A stretch of DNA of 64,000 nt. Origin: Actinomycetota bacterium (GTDB lineage Bacteria; Actinomycetota; UBA4738; HRBIN12). The notes beneath the pieces are model-generated. The model was not told the DNA's origin. It was given only the letters and a program-made list of their open reading frames with translations, and did not search any database. Where the stretch lies: the NCBI GenBank assembly GCA_026003015.1, contig BPGL01000004.1, positions 60,270-124,269 of the forward strand, written 5' to 3'. Below are positions 34,616 to 62,965 of this stretch, piece after piece. Made by a program: the position numbers and the translations under genes. Positions within the stretch are counted from its first letter, which is position 1; the number at the start of each line of letters is the position of its first letter.

Positions 34616-35082
34616 CGCGGGTCCGGGTCGCCGTTCGGGTCGACGCTCCGGCGGAGCTCGTCTGGCGGGTCGTCGCGGACCCCCGGAACCTGCCCCACTG
34701 GGATCGCCACATCGTCGGCGTGTCGCTTGCGTCGTCGCGGCTCGCCCCCGGGGCCACCTACGTCGTGACGATGGCGTTCATGGGCGTGCGGGCGCGCGTG
34801 CGCTGCGAGGTCCTCGACTGGGAGCCTCCTCGCCGGTCCCGCGTGCGCCTCAATGGGGTGCTCGAGGCCACGGTCACGACGGAGATCGAGCCGCGCGCCG
34901 GCGAGCGCTCGACGCTCCGCCACGAGGTCGACTACGAGTTCCGAGGTCCGCTCGGACGCTTCGCGGGGGCCAGCCTGGGGGCGGTCGGTGGGGCGCAGCT
35001 GGCGCTTCGACACGGCACGCTCGCGCAGAAGCGCGCGGCCGAGGAAGCGGCGCGCCGCCCGACGCGTTCCAGCCCGCGCTAG
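34612..35082 (+). CDS. SRPBCC-fold protein
   Basis: A 156-residue START-like protein: VRVAVRVDAPAELVWRVVADPRNLPHW, then VTMAFMGVRARVRCEVLDWEPPRRSRV and a C-terminal helix with ALRHGTLAQKRAAEEAARR. It probably binds a hydrophobic ligand; no ligand is evident. ATG 34612 overlaps the preceding stop as ATGA, closing a five-gene run from pepA. It ends in CTAG, two bases before the convergent LapA-like gene's stop. Confidence 0.68.
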   Translation: MTRVRVAVRVDAPAELVWRVVADPRNLPHWDRHIVGVSLASSRLAPGATYVVTMAFMGVRARVRCEVLDWEPPRRSRVRLNGVLEATVTTEIEPRAGERSTLRHEVDYEFRGPLGRFAGASLGAVGGAQLALRHGTLAQKRAAEEAARRPTRSSPR

Positions 35083-35100
35083 CGCTAGCGCTCGCGCTCG
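35075..35100. repeat. Short tandem repeat at convergent stop codons
   Basis: The sequence CGCGCTAGCGCTAGCGCTCGCGCTCGCGC contains the 6-mer GCGCTA twice and then GCGCTC twice. The first CTAG (35079-35082) holds the plus-strand stop TAG; the second (35085-35088) holds the minus-strand stop, read as CTA on the plus strand. Confidence 0.8.
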
Positions 35101-35378
35101 CGCAACCGCGCTTCCGCGCGGCGCGCGCGTCGCTCGGCGCCACCGATCCTTCCGACGACCCAGCCGCCGAGGAGCCCGAGGAGCGCCGCGACGACGATCG
35201 AGGTCCACACCGGGAACCAACCGTCCCAGAAGAGGAACGCGATGCGGGCGCGCGACCCGTTCTGGAGGATGAACACGACGAGCAGGACGAGCACGATCCC
35301 CAGGACGATCAGCTTGCCGCTCGGACCCTCACGCCGCTCGACCCACTCGGGGCGGCCCCCGTCGCCGCGGTCGCGCAT
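35085..35378 (-). CDS. LapA/DUF1049-like membrane protein
   Basis: A 97-residue protein with two membrane helices: KLIVLGIVLVLLVVFILQNGS and SIVVAALLGLLGGWVVGRIGG, joined by RARIAFLFWDGWFPVWT. This matches the lipopolysaccharide assembly LapA/DUF1049 domain, also widespread in actinomycetes where its function is unclear. The C-terminus is a basic coiled stretch (RRARRAEARLRERER). ATG 35378 follows GGGAGGGTCG; the track start 35417 is too long. Confidence 0.7.
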   Translation of the reverse strand: MRDRGDGGRPEWVERREGPSGKLIVLGIVLVLLVVFILQNGSRARIAFLFWDGWFPVWTSIVVAALLGLLGGWVVGRIGGAERRARRAEARLRERER

Positions 35379-36037: not shown

Positions 36038-36979
36038 GTGGTCGATCTCCTCGGCGCCGTCGGCTGGCCCGTCGTCGATCGCGTCCTCGGGCTCTCGCCC
36101 CACGGCGTGTTCATCGCGATCGGGTTCGCGATCGGCGCATGGGTGTTCACCCGCCTGGCCCTCCAACGTGGGATCGACGAGGCGGCGGCGAGCTCGGTCG
36201 TGTTCTGGTCGCTGGTCGGAGCGGTCGTCGGAGCCCGCGTCGGCTACGTGATCGCCCACGTGAGCGAGTTCTCCGGTCCGCTCGAGTGGTTCGCGGTGTG
36301 GCGCGGAGGGATCTCCCTGCTCGGCGGGATCGCCGGGGCGACGATCGCGAACGCGGTGAACATCCGTCGGTATGGGCTGCGCTTCTTCCAGGTCGCGGAC
36401 ACGGTCGCGCCGGGGCTCGCGCTCGGGATCACGGTCGGGCGGATCGGTGACCTGATCATCGGCGACCACCTGGGCCGCCCGACGAGCTGGCCGCTCGCGT
36501 GGACCTACCGGGGAGGGACGATCGCGCCGCCGTTCCGGGAGACGGCGCCGGGCGTGTTCGTCGCGGACCTGCAGGGAGGGCTCACGCAGACGATCAGCCG
36601 GGCGGGCTCGGAGCTGCGCGACGGCGCGGAGGTGCTCGCCCGCGGGGTCGGCGTCCACCAGACCGCGTTGTACGACCTGCTGCTGGCCGGCGTGCTGTTC
36701 GCGTTCCTGTGGTGGTTCGTGCGATCACCGCGCCGCGAGGGCGTGACGGCCCTCACGTTCGCACTGTGGTACGGGTGCAACCGCCTCCTCGAGGACGCGG
36801 TGCGGATCGACAAGCGCTTCGGGCCACTCACGGGCTCGCAGTGGACCGCGCTTGCCACGGCGCTCGTGGCCGCGGGCCTGCTCCTGTGGTTCGCGCGGAC
36901 ACGACGGCCCGGCCCGACGACGCCGGCCCGAGGGCCGCTGCGCCGGTCCGAACCCGATCGCGCCGGCTCTACGGGCTAG
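36038..36979 (+). CDS. lgt: Prolipoprotein diacylglyceryl transferase
   Basis: A 313-residue inner-membrane enzyme that transfers diacylglyceryl from phosphatidylglycerol to the lipobox cysteine. The family signature region reads GITVGRIGDLIIGDHLGRPTSWP, with VGARVGYVIAH and RGGISLLGGIAGA before it and H-Q-T-A-LYDLLLAG near the end. About seven helices are predicted. The signature has GDLIIGDH where Gram-negative enzymes have GNFINxE, as I recall for other actinomycetes. GTG 36038 follows a TAGACT box. Its stop overlaps the mrp stop in a CTAG. Confidence 0.85.
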   Translation: MVDLLGAVGWPVVDRVLGLSPHGVFIAIGFAIGAWVFTRLALQRGIDEAAASSVVFWSLVGAVVGARVGYVIAHVSEFSGPLEWFAVWRGGISLLGGIAGATIANAVNIRRYGLRFFQVADTVAPGLALGITVGRIGDLIIGDHLGRPTSWPLAWTYRGGTIAPPFRETAPGVFVADLQGGLTQTISRAGSELRDGAEVLARGVGVHQTALYDLLLAGVLFAFLWWFVRSPRREGVTALTFALWYGCNRLLEDAVRIDKRFGPLTGSQWTALATALVAAGLLLWFARTRRPGPTTPARGPLRRSEPDRAGSTG

Positions 36980-44887: not shown

Positions 44888-45102
44888 GCGTTCGCGAGGC
44901 CGTGCTCGCCGTGCTCGCCGACAGCGAGGAGCCGCTGCACTGGACCGCCGTGCTCGATCGGGCGCTGCGGTCCGGCCGGATCGACCCGTTCACCACGCCC
45001 GACGTTCGCGGCGAGGTGCTTCGCGCTCTTCGCGCGCTCGTGCGCGAGGGCGAGCTCGTCGTGGAGTCGAAGGGCGTCTACCGGCTCCGGCGCTCGGGCT
45101 AG
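44884..45102 (+). CDS. Small winged-helix protein, HARE-HTH-like
   Basis: A 72-residue protein: SVREAVLAVLADSEEPLHWTAVLDRALRSG, then VRGEVLRALRALVREGELVVESKGVYRL. This is the layout of a HARE-HTH or RNA-polymerase-delta-like winged helix, used for nucleic-acid or chromatin binding. ATG 44884 overlaps the oxidoreductase stop by four bases. Its stop shares a CTAG with the convergent zinc-ribbon gene. Function is unknown. Confidence 0.68.
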   Translation: MSVREAVLAVLADSEEPLHWTAVLDRALRSGRIDPFTTPDVRGEVLRALRALVREGELVVESKGVYRLRRSG

Positions 45103-50843: not shown

Positions 50844-51512
50844 GTGGGCGGGATCGAGGTCGTGTTCTGGGATATCGGCGGCGTGATGTACGACGACCGC
50901 GTCTACGCGCTCGCCTGGCGCCGGGCGCTCCGAGCGGTCGGCGCGCGGTTCTCCGACGCCGAGTTCGAGGCGGCGTACACCGGCTGCCGGGCGGCCCAGG
51001 ACGGGTCGTTCCGCCGACGGCTCGCGGAGCGGTTCCTGGGGCCCGAGCACGACCTGCTCGCGCTCGAGCGCCTGGCGTCGCGCTGGTGGGACTACCCCCC
51101 CGGGGCCCTCGCTCCCGACGTCGTTCCGGTGCTCACGACGCTGCGGGATCTCGGCTACCGCCTCGGGGTGATCGCGAACCAGCCCAGCGACGTGCGGGCG
51201 GCGCTGCGCCGCGACGGGCTCGAGCCCTTCTTCGAGACCTGGGCGATCAGCGCCGATCTCGGGCTGCACAAGCCCGACCCCGCGCTGTTCGTCGAAGCGG
51301 CCCGGGCGGCGCGCGTCGAGGCCGGCCGCGCGGCGATGGTGGGGGATCGGCTCGACTACGACATCCGCCCGGCGGCGGCCGCGGGGATGCGCACGGTCTG
51401 GCTCCTGCGCGGCGAGGCGCCCGACGAGCCGACGCCCGCCCAGCTCGCCGAGCCCGACCGATCGATCCGCGAGCTCCGGGAGCTCCCGGAGGCGCTCGCC
51501 TCCTTGCGATGA
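50844..51512 (+). CDS. HAD-superfamily hydrolase
   Basis: A 222-residue HAD hydrolase: motif I is VVFWDIGGVMYDD (nucleophile D followed by G rather than the usual D at +2), motif II IANQPSDV, motif III lysine in LGLHKPDPALF and motif IV MVGDRLDYDI. The missing acid at D+2 (DIGGV, as in some epoxide-hydrolase N-terminal and dehalogenase-like members) weakens a simple phosphatase call. The substrate is unknown. GTG 50844; its stop overlaps the NDH-2 gene as ATGA. Confidence 0.78.
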   Translation: MGGIEVVFWDIGGVMYDDRVYALAWRRALRAVGARFSDAEFEAAYTGCRAAQDGSFRRRLAERFLGPEHDLLALERLASRWWDYPPGALAPDVVPVLTTLRDLGYRLGVIANQPSDVRAALRRDGLEPFFETWAISADLGLHKPDPALFVEAARAARVEAGRAAMVGDRLDYDIRPAAAAGMRTVWLLRGEAPDEPTPAQLAEPDRSIRELRELPEALASLR

Positions 51513-52897
51513 GCAGGCCGGGGCGCGAGCGGTCCCGGCGGATCCTGATCGTCGGCGGGGGGTTCGTCGGGATGGTCGTCGCCCGTCGGCTGGAGCGCCG
51601 GATCGACCGACGGCACGCGATCGAGCTCGTCACGCCAGAGAACTTCATGCTGTACCACCCGTTCCTCCCGGAGGTGGCGAGCGGGACGATCGACCCCCGA
51701 GCGGTCGTCGTGCCGCTGCGACGGGCGCTGCGGCGCACGCGCCTCACGATCGGGGAGGTCGAGCGGGTCGAGCACGACCGTCGCAGTGCGTCGGTGCGGC
51801 TCCCGCACGGTGCTGTCGTCGAGCGGGCCTACGACGAGATCGTGCTGGCCCCGGGCTCGCGCTCGCGCGTCTCGCACGTGCCGGGGCTCGCCGAGCACGG
51901 GATCGGCTTCAAGACCCTCGCGGAGGCGATCTGGCTGCGCAACCGCGTGCTGTCGCAGCTCGACCGCGCGGAGGCGATGGACGACCCCCGCGCGCGACGG
52001 CAGGCGCTCACGTTCGTGTTCGTCGGCGGCGGCTACGCGGGGATCGAGGCGCTCGGCGAGCTCGAGGACCTCGTCCGCGACGCGTTGCCCCTGTACCGCA
52101 CGGTCGCGCCCCAGGAGCCGCGCTGGCTGATGGTCGAGGCCGGTCCGAGGATCCTGCGGGAGCTCGATGAGGACCTCGCGGCCGACGCCCGCCGCCGTCT
52201 CGAGGAGCGCGGCGTGGAGTTCCGGATCGGGACCCGTCTCGAGGCGGTCGAGCCGGGCCGCGTTCGGCTCTCCGACGGGGAGGTGATCGCAGCCGACACC
52301 GTCGTGTGGACCACCGGGGTCCACCCCGTCGCGCTCGCGCGTCGTTCCGGGCTGCCGGTCGACGCGACCGGACGCCTGCTCGTCGACCCGTACCTGCGGG
52401 TCCAGGGGCTCGAGGGGGCGTGGGGGGCGGGCGACGCCGCGGCCGTGCCCGACGTCACGACCGGCGGGCTCGTGCCGGCGACCGCTCAGCACGCCCTGCG
52501 CGAGGCCCGGCGCCTCGCCGACAACCTCGCCTCGACGGTCGACGGCGACGGCGGCCTGCGACCCTTCCGCTGGAAGCACAAGGGCTCGGTGGTCTCGCTC
52601 GGACACTACGAGGGCGTGGCGAACCCGCTCGGGATCCGCGTGCGCGGGTTCCCCGCCTGGTTCCTGCACCGGACCTACCACCTATTCGCGATGCCGACCC
52701 TGGGGCGGCGGGTCCGCATCGCGGCGGACTGGACCGTCGCCCTGCTGTTCGCCCGGGACGTGTCGCAGCTCGGCTCGCTCACGACGCCGCGCGAGGCCTT
52801 CCTGCGGGCTCTCGAGAGCGATGACAACGGGCCGCACGGCGCCGGGGGTTCCGAGGCCGACGGAGACGCGCCGCGATCGGACCGGCCCGGAGGCTAG
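51509..52897 (+). CDS. Type II NADH dehydrogenase-like flavoprotein
   Basis: A 462-residue FAD/NAD(P)H oxidoreductase of the Ndh family. RILIVGGGFVGMVVARRLE binds FAD, FVFVGGGYAGIEALGEL binds NADH, and the FAD-contact GAWGAGDAAAVPD lies later. NFMLYHPFLPEVASG is a typical segment after the first strand. A moderately hydrophobic C-terminus could attach it to the membrane. It passes electrons from NADH to quinone without pumping protons. ATG 51509 overlaps the HAD stop by four bases. Confidence 0.85.
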   Translation: MSRPGRERSRRILIVGGGFVGMVVARRLERRIDRRHAIELVTPENFMLYHPFLPEVASGTIDPRAVVVPLRRALRRTRLTIGEVERVEHDRRSASVRLPHGAVVERAYDEIVLAPGSRSRVSHVPGLAEHGIGFKTLAEAIWLRNRVLSQLDRAEAMDDPRARRQALTFVFVGGGYAGIEALGELEDLVRDALPLYRTVAPQEPRWLMVEAGPRILRELDEDLAADARRRLEERGVEFRIGTRLEAVEPGRVRLSDGEVIAADTVVWTTGVHPVALARRSGLPVDATGRLLVDPYLRVQGLEGAWGAGDAAAVPDVTTGGLVPATAQHALREARRLADNLASTVDGDGGLRPFRWKHKGSVVSLGHYEGVANPLGIRVRGFPAWFLHRTYHLFAMPTLGRRVRIAADWTVALLFARDVSQLGSLTTPREAFLRALESDDNGPHGAGGSEADGDAPRSDRPGG

Positions 52898-52927
52898 GAG
52901 CTCAGCCGGCCTAGGAGCTCAGCCGCC
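52894..52927. repeat. 17-bp tandem duplication spanning two convergent stop codons
   Basis: CTAGGAGCTCAGCCGGC is followed directly by CTAGGAGCTCAGCCGCC (16 of 17 identical). The first copy holds the TAG stop of the NDH-2 gene; the second holds the CTA that is the stop of the CBS-domain gene on the other strand. Confidence 0.85.
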
Positions 52928-53381
52928 GCTGGCGCTGAAGCTCGCTCGCGGCCCGCAGGGCCTTCTGGCTCCGCTCGATGTCGGGCATCTCGTGGCCGCC
53001 GGCGAGCTCCTCGGCCGCCCACTTCGTGAGGTCGCGGATCGACACGATCCCAACGACCCGTCCACCGTCGACGACCGGCAGATGGCGGATGTTCATCCGC
53101 ACCATCTGGTCGGCCGCCTCGGCGATGTCGGTCTTCGGTCCGCACGTCTCCAGGTGACGGCGCGTCATCCCGTGCTCGACCTTGACCGTGTGCGGATCGC
53201 CGCCCGCGGCCACGAGGTTCACGATGTCGCGCTCGGTGACGATGCCGGCCAGGTGTCCGTCGGCGTCGAGCACCACGACGGAGGAGATCCCGTTGGACCG
53301 CATCACCTTGGCAACGTCGGCGAAGGTCTCCTGCGCGTCGGCCGTCTTGACGTCGGTGTGCATGATGTCGCCGACCTGCAT
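52911..53381 (-). CDS. CBS-pair domain protein
   Basis: A 156-residue protein with two CBS motifs: VGDIMHTDVKTADAQETFADVAKV with GIVTERDIV, and IAEAADQMVRMNIRHLPVV with GIVSIRDLTKW. Such proteins bind adenine nucleotides and report energy state. I use ATG 53381, with GAGGAGG seven bases upstream, rather than the track start 53408. It converges on the NDH-2 gene, so an energy-sensing link is possible but only from position. Confidence 0.82.
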   Translation of the reverse strand: MQVGDIMHTDVKTADAQETFADVAKVMRSNGISSVVVLDADGHLAGIVTERDIVNLVAAGGDPHTVKVEHGMTRRHLETCGPKTDIAEAADQMVRMNIRHLPVVDGGRVVGIVSIRDLTKWAAEELAGGHEMPDIERSQKALRAASELQRQRRLSS

Positions 53382-53475
53382 CGCGATCGCCTCCTCGTCC
53401 GATGCCACCCGGGCTCGTGCCGGGGCGGCAAGCCTACCGCAGCCCGGGGCCGGGAGGCCGCGAGCCCGGCGGGGC

Positions 53476-54831: not shown

Positions 54832-56273
54832 GACGCGCGCACCCCGACCTGCACCCCTCGGAACCGCGCCGGCGCCACGCCGTGCCCGACGCGCCCGACC
54901 TGGCTCGGCTGCCCCTTGCCGCAGTTCGGCGTCCCGTAGACGACCCAGTCCTCCCGGCCGGCCACGGCGTCGAGGGAGCCCCAGAACTCCGGCGTCGTTC
55001 CCGTGTAGTTCGGGTTGCGGTACAGCTGCGTGAGCCGGCCCTTGCGGATCCGCCACGCGACCTCGCAGCCGAACTGGAAGTTGATCCGGTGGTCGTCGAT
55101 CGACCACGACGTGTTCGTCGACAGGTACATCCCGTCCTCGGTGTCGCCGATGATCTCGGCGAGCGTGCCCTCGCGCGGCTCGATCGAGATGTTCGTCATC
55201 CGGATCAGCGGCAGGTGCCCCCAGCCGTCGGCCCGGGCGGTCCCGTTCGAGGTGCGCCCGACGATCGGGGCCGTCTCGCGGCTGGTGAGGAAGTTCACGA
55301 GTACGCCGTCCTCGATGATCGGCACGCGCTGCGCCGGGACGCCCTCGTCGTCGAACCCGAACGTGCCGAGGCCGCCGGGAAGGGTCGCGTCGGCGGTGAC
55401 GGCGAGCAGCGGGCTGCCGTAGCGGCGCCGGCCGAGGTCCTCCGGACGTAGGAACGATCCGCCGGCGTAGGCGAGCTCCATCCCGAGCACGCGGTCGAGC
55501 TCGATCGCGTGGCCGATCGATTCGTGGATCTGGAGCTCCATCTGGTTCGCGTCGAGCACGAGGGTCGTGACCTCGCTCGGGCACTCGGGCGCGGCGAGCA
55601 GCTCGACGGCCTCCCGGCCGATCCGCTCGGCCTCGGCGACGAGCCCGAGCATCCGGACGTGCTCGTAGCCGGCGGAGCGATGGTGGCCGCGGAACGAGTC
55701 CGGGAACGACCGCCGCTGGACGTCCTCGTCGCCGACCGCCGTCGCCTGCAGGCCGCCCCCGGACTGGGTGATCGTCTGCTCGATCGCCGCTCCCTCCGAG
55801 GAGGCGAACCAGCTGCGACGGCGGAAGAAGTCGAGCGTGCCCTCGGCGTAGGTGACGCCCGCGACGCCCCTCGCTCGGTGGGTCGCCTCCATCAGGAGGG
55901 CGATCTTCTCGGCCAGGGGCACCTCGAAGGGATCCTCCACGATCGGGGTCTCCCAGCGGGCCTGCGCGGGCTCGACCGGGGCGAGCCGCACGGCCTCGCC
56001 GGGCAGGCGGGCGGCGGCCCGCGCGATCGAGACGGCGAGGGCCGCGGTGCGCTCGACGTCCTCCTCGTCGAGGCGCGCGGTGGCGGCGAACCCCCAGCGA
56101 CCGCCGGCGAGCACGCGGATCCCCACGCCGGTGGAGCTCGTGCGGTCCACGCCCTCCATCCGTTCGTCCCGGACCGTGATCGCCTCGGTCTCGTCGGTCG
56201 TCACGCGCGCCTCGGCGTGGTCGGCGCCGGCGCGGCGCGCCGCCTCGACCGCGAGCCGAGCAACGTCGAGCAC
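54828..56273 (-). CDS. tldD: TldD metalloprotease subunit
   Basis: A 481-residue U62 metalloprotease. The zinc motif is HESIGHAIELD (HExxxH with a downstream acid). The N-terminal part has AEARVTTDETEAITVRDERMEGV, and the C-terminus has EVAWRIRKGRLTQLYRNPNY. It forms a heterodimer with TldE that cleaves peptides inside the shared cavity. GTG 56273 has GGGGGGAGGCTC upstream. No peptide-antibiotic precursor is nearby, so a general protein-turnover role is likely. Confidence 0.9.
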   Translation of the reverse strand: MLDVARLAVEAARRAGADHAEARVTTDETEAITVRDERMEGVDRTSSTGVGIRVLAGGRWGFAATARLDEEDVERTAALAVSIARAAARLPGEAVRLAPVEPAQARWETPIVEDPFEVPLAEKIALLMEATHRARGVAGVTYAEGTLDFFRRRSWFASSEGAAIEQTITQSGGGLQATAVGDEDVQRRSFPDSFRGHHRSAGYEHVRMLGLVAEAERIGREAVELLAAPECPSEVTTLVLDANQMELQIHESIGHAIELDRVLGMELAYAGGSFLRPEDLGRRRYGSPLLAVTADATLPGGLGTFGFDDEGVPAQRVPIIEDGVLVNFLTSRETAPIVGRTSNGTARADGWGHLPLIRMTNISIEPREGTLAEIIGDTEDGMYLSTNTSWSIDDHRINFQFGCEVAWRIRKGRLTQLYRNPNYTGTTPEFWGSLDAVAGREDWVVYGTPNCGKGQPSQVGRVGHGVAPARFRGVQVGVRAS

Positions 56274-56474
56274 GAGCCTCCCCCCTCACCGCTCCGCGGG
56301 CGGGCCGATGCCCAGGCCCGCAACGGACCGCCGCATCCTACCGTTTGCGCGCGACATCTTGCGCGCGACATCGCCCGCTCGGCCGGTCGGGTCGCGCGGG
56401 CCGCACGGCGGCGTCTGGACCTCGGTCGCGCCGCGACGTGGCAAGCTACGCCCACCCGAACGGAAGGAGCCAGG

Positions 56475-60842: not shown

Positions 60843-62035
60843 TCACGTACCCCTTGGGGTTCGAGGCGGCGGGGATCGCGGCGGGGCTCAAGCCCAGCGG
60901 ACGGGAGGACCTCGCCCTGCTCGTGGCCCCGCCCGGGGCGACGGCGGCCGGGCTGTTCACGACGAACCGCGTCCAGGCCGCTCCCGTGCGGCTCGCGCGC
61001 GAGCGCCTGGGAAGGACCGGGGGCGTCGCGCGCGCGGTGCTCGTGAACAGCGGGCAGGCCAACGCGGGGACCGGCGAGCGCGGTCTCGCCGATGCGGTGG
61101 CCACGACCGATGCCCTGGCGGCGCTCCTCGGCTGCGCCCCCGATGAGGTCCTGCCCTGCTCGACCGGCGTGATCGGGGAGCCCCTGCCGGTCGAGGCGAT
61201 CCGTCGGGCGCTGCCCGCGCTCGTGGCCGCGCGCTCGCCCGAGGGGAGCGCCGCGTTCGCGCGGGCGATCCTCACGACCGACACGGTCGACAAGCAGGCC
61301 GCGGCCGAGGCCGACGGCTACCGCGTCGGGGGGGCGGCGAAGGGCGTCGGGATGGTCGCCCCGCACCTGGCGACGATGCTCGCGTTCGTGACGACCGACG
61401 CGCCGGTGAGCGCCGCCGACCTGTCGGTGCTCGCCGACGAGGCCCTGCGCCCGGCGTTCGAGGCGATCACGGTCGACGGGTGCACGAGCACGAACGACAG
61501 CGTGCTCCTGCTGGCGAGCGGCGCGGCGGACGGTGAGCCGGTCGTCCCCGGCACCCCCGCGTGGGTCGCGCTCGCGGGCGCGTGTCGGCGGGTCGCCGAC
61601 GAGCTCGCCCGCCGACTGATCGCCGACGCGGAGGGCGCCGAGCACGTCCTGATCGTCGACGTCGAGGGCGCGGCCTCCGAGCGCGACGCCGGACGCCTTG
61701 CCCGCGCGGTGGCCGACTCGCCGCTGGTGAAGACGGCGGCGTTCGGGCGGGACCCGAACCCGGGCCGGATCCTGCAGGCGCTCGGCGCCGCCGGCGTCGA
61801 GCTCGACCCGACGTCGATCGACGTGTGGATCGCCGACGTGCGGGTGGTGGAGGCCGGCGTGATCCCGCCCGCGTACTTCGGCGACGACGGCCTGCGGGCG
61901 TCGGCCTCGGCCGCGATGGCCGGTTCCGAGATCCCGGTCCGCGTGCGGGTCGGTGGGGGACCGGGCACGGCGCGGGTCCTGGGGTGCGACCTCACCTACG
62001 GCTACGTCCGGATCAACGGGGAGTACACGACGTGA
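60839..62035 (+). CDS. argJ: Ornithine acetyltransferase / N-acetylglutamate synthase
   Basis: A 398-residue ArgJ protein recycling the acetyl group from acetylornithine to glutamate. The self-cleavage site is T179 in KGVGMVAPHLATML, with SGQANAGTG and the C-terminal LTYGYVRINGEYTT also diagnostic. Cleavage yields two chains. GTG 60839 overlaps the argC stop as GTGA. The stop is the first part of a 27-base tandem repeat that holds the argB ribosome site. Bifunctionality cannot be told from sequence. Confidence 0.94.
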   Translation: MITYPLGFEAAGIAAGLKPSGREDLALLVAPPGATAAGLFTTNRVQAAPVRLARERLGRTGGVARAVLVNSGQANAGTGERGLADAVATTDALAALLGCAPDEVLPCSTGVIGEPLPVEAIRRALPALVAARSPEGSAAFARAILTTDTVDKQAAAEADGYRVGGAAKGVGMVAPHLATMLAFVTTDAPVSAADLSVLADEALRPAFEAITVDGCTSTNDSVLLLASGAADGEPVVPGTPAWVALAGACRRVADELARRLIADAEGAEHVLIVDVEGAASERDAGRLARAVADSPLVKTAAFGRDPNPGRILQALGAAGVELDPTSIDVWIADVRVVEAGVIPPAYFGDDGLRASASAAMAGSEIPVRVRVGGGPGTARVLGCDLTYGYVRINGEYTT

Positions 62036-62085
62036 AGGGGAGGTCGCCCACGTGACCGGTGAAGGGGAGGTCGCCCGCGTGAGCG
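62032..62085 (+). repeat. 27-bp tandem repeat duplicating the argB ribosome site and start
   Basis: GTGAAGGGGAGGTCGCCCACGTGACCG (first copy) and GTGAAGGGGAGGTCGCCCGCGTGAGCG (second) match at 25 of 27 positions. Each has AAGGGGAGG and a following GTG (62052 and 62079) in the same frame, so argB has two complete initiation sites. Confidence 0.85.
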
Positions 62086-62965
62086 CGCCGCAGATCCGCC
62101 AACGCACCGTGGCCAAGGCGCGCACGCTGCTCGAAGCGCTCCCGTTCATCGCGCGCCCACCAGGGGCGCACGATCGTCATCAAGTACGGCGGCGCGGCGA
62201 TGGACACCGCCGGCCTGGCGAGTTCCTTCGCCGAGGACGTCGCGCTCGTGCAAAGCGTCGGGATCCGTCCCGTGATCGTGCACGGGGGCGGCCCGGCCGT
62301 CACGCAGCTGTCGGACAGGCTCGGGATCGAAACGACGTTCGTCGACGGCCTGCGCGTCACCGACGCGGCCACGCTCGACGTCGCCACGATGGTGCTCGCC
62401 GGCAAGCTCAACACCGAGGTCGTCGCGACGCTCGTCGCCGGCGGGGTGAACGCGGTCGGGCTCTCGGGCGTCGACGGGCGCCTGCTGCTCGCGCGTCCGA
62501 CGAGCGAGCCGGACCTGGGCTTCGTGGGCGAGGTCGTTCACGTCCGCGTCGACGTGCTGGACACGCTCCTGGGTCGGGGCTTCGTGCCCGTCGTCGCGTC
62601 GATCGCGGTCGACGAGTCGGGGCAGGCCTACAACGTGAACGCCGACGTCGTCGCCGCCGAGCTCGCGATCGCGCTTCGAGCGCAGAAGCTCGTCTACGTG
62701 CTCGACGTCCCCGGCCTGCTCGGTTCCGGGGGCGAGCTGTTGTCGGAGCTGTCGGCCGAGCAGGCTCGCGAGCTGCTCGACCGCCGCGGCGTGATCGAGG
62801 GGGGCATGATCCCGAAGGTCGAGAGCGCCGTGCGGGCCCTCGGCGCGGGCGTGGAACGGGTGCACCTCGTCGACGGCCGGGTCGAGCACGCGGTGGTGCT
62901 CGAGCTGTTCACCCCCCGAGGGGATCGGCACGATGATCGCGCCCGAGGCCGGGAGCGCGCCGTGA
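62052..62965 (+). CDS. argB: Acetylglutamate kinase, interrupted by two single-base insertions
   Basis: The kinase sequence is clear when three frames are joined: LLEALPFIAR, then HQGRTIVIKYGGAAM, HGGGPAVTQLSDRLG, LAGKLNTEVVATL, VNADVVAAELAIAL, RGVIEGGMIPKVESA, and FTPEGIGTMIAPE to TGA 62965. One extra C in the run at 62156-62158 and one in the six-C run at 62912-62917 break the frame. Corrected, it is about 300 residues and intact, and its stop overlaps argD as GTGA. Start is GTG 62052 or 62079. It phosphorylates N-acetylglutamate and is often feedback-inhibited by arginine. Confidence 0.85.

Follow-up and report, generated by a model that had tools for sequence, protein, structure and literature searches.

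In the window, by which we mean the whole stretch of 64,000 nucleotides analysed here, a gene for an NDH-2-type oxidoreductase and a gene for a two-CBS-domain protein converge on a short repeat (Table 1). The repeat consists of two adjacent, head-to-tail copies of 17 bp which are identical at 16 of 17 positions (94%). The first CTAG ends the oxidoreductase gene on the forward strand and the second ends the CBS-domain gene on the reverse strand, with 13 bases between the two stop codons. Copy 2 is wholly coding and encodes the C-terminal residues of the CBS protein (..RLSS*), for which the single mismatch between the copies is synonymous. The tandem duplication, its coordinates and the CTAG at each stop had been described in a first-pass annotation, and all of these proved exact when checked in the sequence. 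The same annotation had predicted that a one-copy version would place both stops in a single CTAG. Deletion of either copy in a script gave this outcome, and the 462-aa and 165-aa proteins remained identical.

The repeat was unlisted by TRF at score 30 and was picked up by a second repeat search. The window contains one repeat of period 17 whose copies agree at 16 or more of 17 positions, as opposed to none in 40 first-order Markov simulations. When all periods from 13 to 40 were considered at an identity of at least 93%, two tandem repeats were observed in the window against 0.025 expected. The 17-bp tandem duplication is not a product of chance.

Table 1. Genes, repeat copies and CTAG stop sites at the NDH-2/CBS junction and at the junctions used for comparison; positions without a prefix are those of the window
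Feature	Position	Strand	Remarks
NDH-2-type NAD(P)/FAD oxidoreductase	51509..52897	+	Pyr_redox_2, Pfam 7.5e-40; 462 aa
Two-CBS-domain protein	52911..53408	-	165 aa; two Pfam CBS domains
Copy 1 of 17-bp repeat, CTAGGAGCTCAGCCGGC	52894-52910	.	52895-52897 = NDH-2 TAG stop
Copy 2 of 17-bp repeat, CTAGGAGCTCAGCCGCC	52911-52927	.	52911-52913 (CTA) = CBS TAG stop on -
Single CTAG common to lgt (+) and mrp (-) stops	36976..36979	.	unsplit state
GCGCTA hexamer array, 4.7 copies	35076..35103	.	CTAGs at 35079-35082 and 35085-35088; split CTAG pair (window 35079), period 6
Split CTAG pair	L113:10159		period 5
Split CTAG pair	L128:11697		period 5
Split CTAG pair	L155:15712		period 13, 12/13 identity; other contig

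The junction in related genomes

The junction was compared in 11 readable relatives drawn from 17 family genomes, all of which belong to other genera. A tree built from NDH-2, CBS and Mrp placed the nearest of them, G003 and G013, together as a sister lineage, a sister genus with about 70% protein identity. A contig scan for nearer relatives returned four loci, all in genera further away; judging by length, at least two of their contigs are those of G003 and G013. The convergent order of the two genes is conserved in the relatives, and the 17-bp repeat at this junction is absent from all 11. The distance from stop to stop is -4 in G007, whose genes share a CTAG, 6 in each of G005, G002 and G012, 7 and 8 in the sister genus (G003 and G013, respectively, with TGA for both genes), 15 in G014, 16 in G009, 30 in G004, 181 in G006 and 761 in G008. 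Long, unrelated spacers in relatives, which the first-pass annotation had named as the observation that would speak against its reading, thus separate the genes in only two of the 11 (181 and 761 bp).

The one-copy versions that it had proposed looking for are represented by the shared CTAG of G007 (1/11), the 10 other readable relatives having separate stops. G007 belongs to another part of the tree than the sister lineage, and its reading as a preserved one-copy ancestor became doubtful once the tree had placed it there. Given this position, the TGA codons lying 7-8 bp apart in the sister genus and the NDH-2 tail described below, the shared stop of G007 is probably independent and not a preserved ancestor.

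The NDH-2 protein of this genome is about 25 C-terminal residues longer than in the relatives, none of which has the same tail, so its stop shifted either earlier than the duplication or along with it. This tail of about 25 residues, at window positions 52820-52894, is of low complexity (DDNGPHGAGGSEADGDAPRSDRPGG). On the other side of the junction, copy 2 contains AGCTCAGC, which agrees with the end of the CBS gene in G003 (TCAGCTCAGC), and the matching bases are kept in relatives. Because of this match, copy 2 looks like the older copy, and copy 1 would be the addition.

As far as these comparisons go, the relatives neither refute the splitting of a shared stop at the NDH-2/CBS junction nor supply a preserved one-copy ancestor. 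The proposal that overlapping stops were moved apart by the duplication, which we regard as plausible and supported in part, has the duplication itself, the one-copy CTAG and G007 in its favour. Against it stand the TGA/TGA stops of the sister genus; because these are 7-8 bp apart and the NDH-2 tail is lacking in the relatives, the ancestral junction cannot be read off. The duplication had also been called recent, which the 16/17 identity only suggests, the nearest relatives for comparison being in the sister genus.

Shared and split stop codons across the genome

The source genome comprises four contigs with a total of 2.2 Mb and 73% GC. Gene calling proceeded in separate stretches of 20 kb and used a codon-usage model that had been trained on this same genome; it gave 2067 genes and 87% coding sequence. 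Among 291 convergent pairs genome-wide, 28 have an exact four-base overlap, 25 via CTAG and 3 via TTAG. Two shared-stop junctions in the window had been put forward for comparison by the first-pass annotation. The one at lgt/mrp is real, as one CTAG ends both genes. At 45099-45102 the forward gene was called and the reverse gene, which is short, K/A-rich and AT-hook-like, fell below the threshold of the gene caller, so that this second comparison is plausible.

Two separate CTAG ends at most 60 bp apart were found in five convergent pairs, all of them tandem repeats (NDH-2/CBS with period 17, and the four listed in Table 1). The cases with period 5 and period 6 count for less, since they need little beyond CTAG to look tandem, although the period-6 pair does sit in an array of 4.7 copies (Table 1). 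Among convergent pairs with gaps of 1-56 bp, those in which both genes end in CTAG are over-represented (5 observed; Fisher P = 0.013). Moreover, among the 160 junctions whose gaps measure 2-120 bp, a tandem identity of at least 75% at the stop-to-stop offset was found at only three, all of them CTAG/CTAG. No further split CTAG pairs were found in 400 kb of G008 and 77 short loci from relatives, both of which are small samples.

Two of these junctions can be followed in relatives. In the hexamer array, the two CTAGs end a polyketide-cyclase-like gene (+) and a gene for a LapA-like small membrane protein (-). Of eight clean relatives, seven end both genes in one CTAG or CTAA, with the sister genus among them, so this genome represents the derived, split state. 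At the junction with the 13-bp period, the stop is shared in the sister genus, as CTAG in G013 and G016 and as TTAG in G003, and also in G002, as CTAG; the small membrane protein on its forward side was recognised by pattern, and by tblastn in G002 only. These comparisons make it probable that a shared stop was split by tandem duplication in this lineage. The process is better supported at the 35079 and 13-bp junctions than at NDH-2/CBS, to which it may be carried over by analogy.

Dozens of similar short tandem duplications are present in this genome, and those with a period of 10-60 and an identity of at least 90% make up about 1% of the intergenic bases. The corresponding expectation at the 28 shared-stop points is about 0.28, and two were seen with a period of at least 10, one being NDH-2/CBS. 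When this case is left out, duplications are not significantly enriched at shared stops (1 observed vs 0.27 expected), and no hot spot is claimed there. The simplest account is that duplications arise everywhere and are harmless across a shared stop. Further examples were noted elsewhere. A perfect 14-bp tandem duplication of TTGCGCGCGACATC occupies the divergent intergenic region at window positions 56345-56372, a short way upstream of a reverse-strand gene which starts near 56273, and a 27-bp tandem duplication (93%) at window positions 62031-62086 was assigned to a convergent junction. A codirectional intergenic region holds a perfect 17-bp tandem duplication with two CTAGs (GACTCCTGGGGCTAGCGTGCTCCTGGGGCTAGCGTGCCG) at L151:14668-14706. 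Furthermore, L093:12177 and L093:16724 carry identical stretches of 54 bases (CTAGGTGTTCTGC...GACCTAG), 4.5 kb apart, which are perhaps the ends of a repeated element.

The tetramer CTAG is strongly avoided genome-wide, with 541 copies, or 0.28 of the Markov expectation. The expected number is 1927 from trinucleotides and 5358 from base composition. Gene stops account for 171 of the 541 copies, and 25 of these are common to two genes. Rarity of CTAG has been described in enterobacteria (PMC5337935).

Discussion

The reading that we favour, and to which we attach a fair but far from complete confidence, is that the NDH-2/CBS repeat is a neutral short tandem duplication which split a shared stop. 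Before the duplication, a single palindromic CTAG, which gives TAG on either strand, most likely ended the two genes. A short head-to-tail duplication across the convergent 3' ends, probably caused by slippage during replication or by a comparable local error of copying, would then have doubled the unit holding this stop. Each gene, coming from its own side, terminates at the first copy met, with both frames left whole, so a duplication of this kind is invisible to both proteins and can drift. A four-base overlap would in this way become a short spacer, here the 13 bp between the stop codons.

An ancestor without a shared stop may also be considered, in which NDH-2 ran past its old end and was caught by the CTAG in the duplicated CBS end. 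Such a course of events would agree with the relatives, which end NDH-2 about 25 residues earlier and mostly have spacers of 6-16 bp and other stops, and also with the fact that copy 2 is the side conserved among them. However, the NDH-2 frame meets the same CTAG in the one-copy sequence, so that no duplication is needed for the stop, and the other split junctions share a stop in relatives; we therefore regard this ancestor as rather unlikely, though deserving of some weight. It is improbable that the two copies serve a function, whether as a double site for protein binding or as a transcription terminator lying between the convergent genes. The unit does contain GAGCTC and sits exactly between two transcription units, a possible place for a bidirectional terminator, but RNA folds of both strands were no better than those of shuffled sequences (z of 0.07 and -0.49), the repeat is found in none of the relatives and the whole of copy 2 is coding. 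Scans of the repeat for terminator-like or promoter-like sites found none, and Rfam gave no match; a bidirectional terminator with a stable hairpin and T tract, or another RNA element, was rejected on the folds, the terminator scan and Rfam.

It is scarcely credible that the doubled stop was kept as a fail-safe against read-through. On its own strand, each gene does have a further TAG downstream of its stop, but this is offset by 17 bases, which is not a multiple of three, and is out of frame for both genes. The fail-safe is thus contradicted by the frame. In bacteria, no sign of selection for extra stops has been reported (PMC6764699). As for a chance resemblance or an artefact of assembly, the genome is a single draft assembly in four contigs, yet the absence of such a repeat from the 40 simulations speaks against this, and an array of 34 bp is short in relation to usual read lengths, which makes an origin in assembly unlikely; the probability left to either is very small.

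Convergent four-base overlaps via CTAG, CTAA, TTAG or TTAA have been described (PMC2174442). This type includes the presumed one-copy ancestor and the 28 four-base overlaps of this genome, whereas at NDH-2/CBS the stops are 13 bp apart and the tetramer is duplicated together with its flank. With its period of 17, two copies and 16/17 identity, the repeat resembles the short intergenic tandem duplications of the slippage type, from which it differs in that its unit extends over the stops of both genes at once. Overlaps have been found to be readily gained and lost, and movement of start or stop codons has been proposed as the route of their loss (PMC4161906). The end result is alike, as the overlap is gone; in that route, however, a new upstream stop or downstream start shortens a protein, whereas duplication of a shared stop alters neither. 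The word 'duplication' is absent from PMC4161906, and a limited search of the open-access literature found no paper in which a tandem duplication is described as splitting a shared stop.

Most studies of overlapping genes deal with the formation of overlaps; their loss has been little modelled, and a model of it has been called for (PMC4161906). A duplication holding the shared stop harms neither gene, and would be a cheap way of undoing an overlap. More broadly, tandem duplication across a shared palindromic stop might be a general, protein-neutral route by which four-base overlaps give rise to a measurable share of short convergent spacers. We put this forward tentatively and hold it to be possible rather than probable; its basis is five split against 25 intact CTAG junctions in one genome, with the two period-5 cases being weak. 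The trace left by such events, two CTAGs in a tandem repeat, is countable across genomes. Taken alone, the NDH-2/CBS site is without practical consequence, and its duplication is ordinary in kind, a piece of small wear and tear. Together with the four other sites, it suggests a simple way in which genes sharing a stop can be separated while their proteins remain unchanged.
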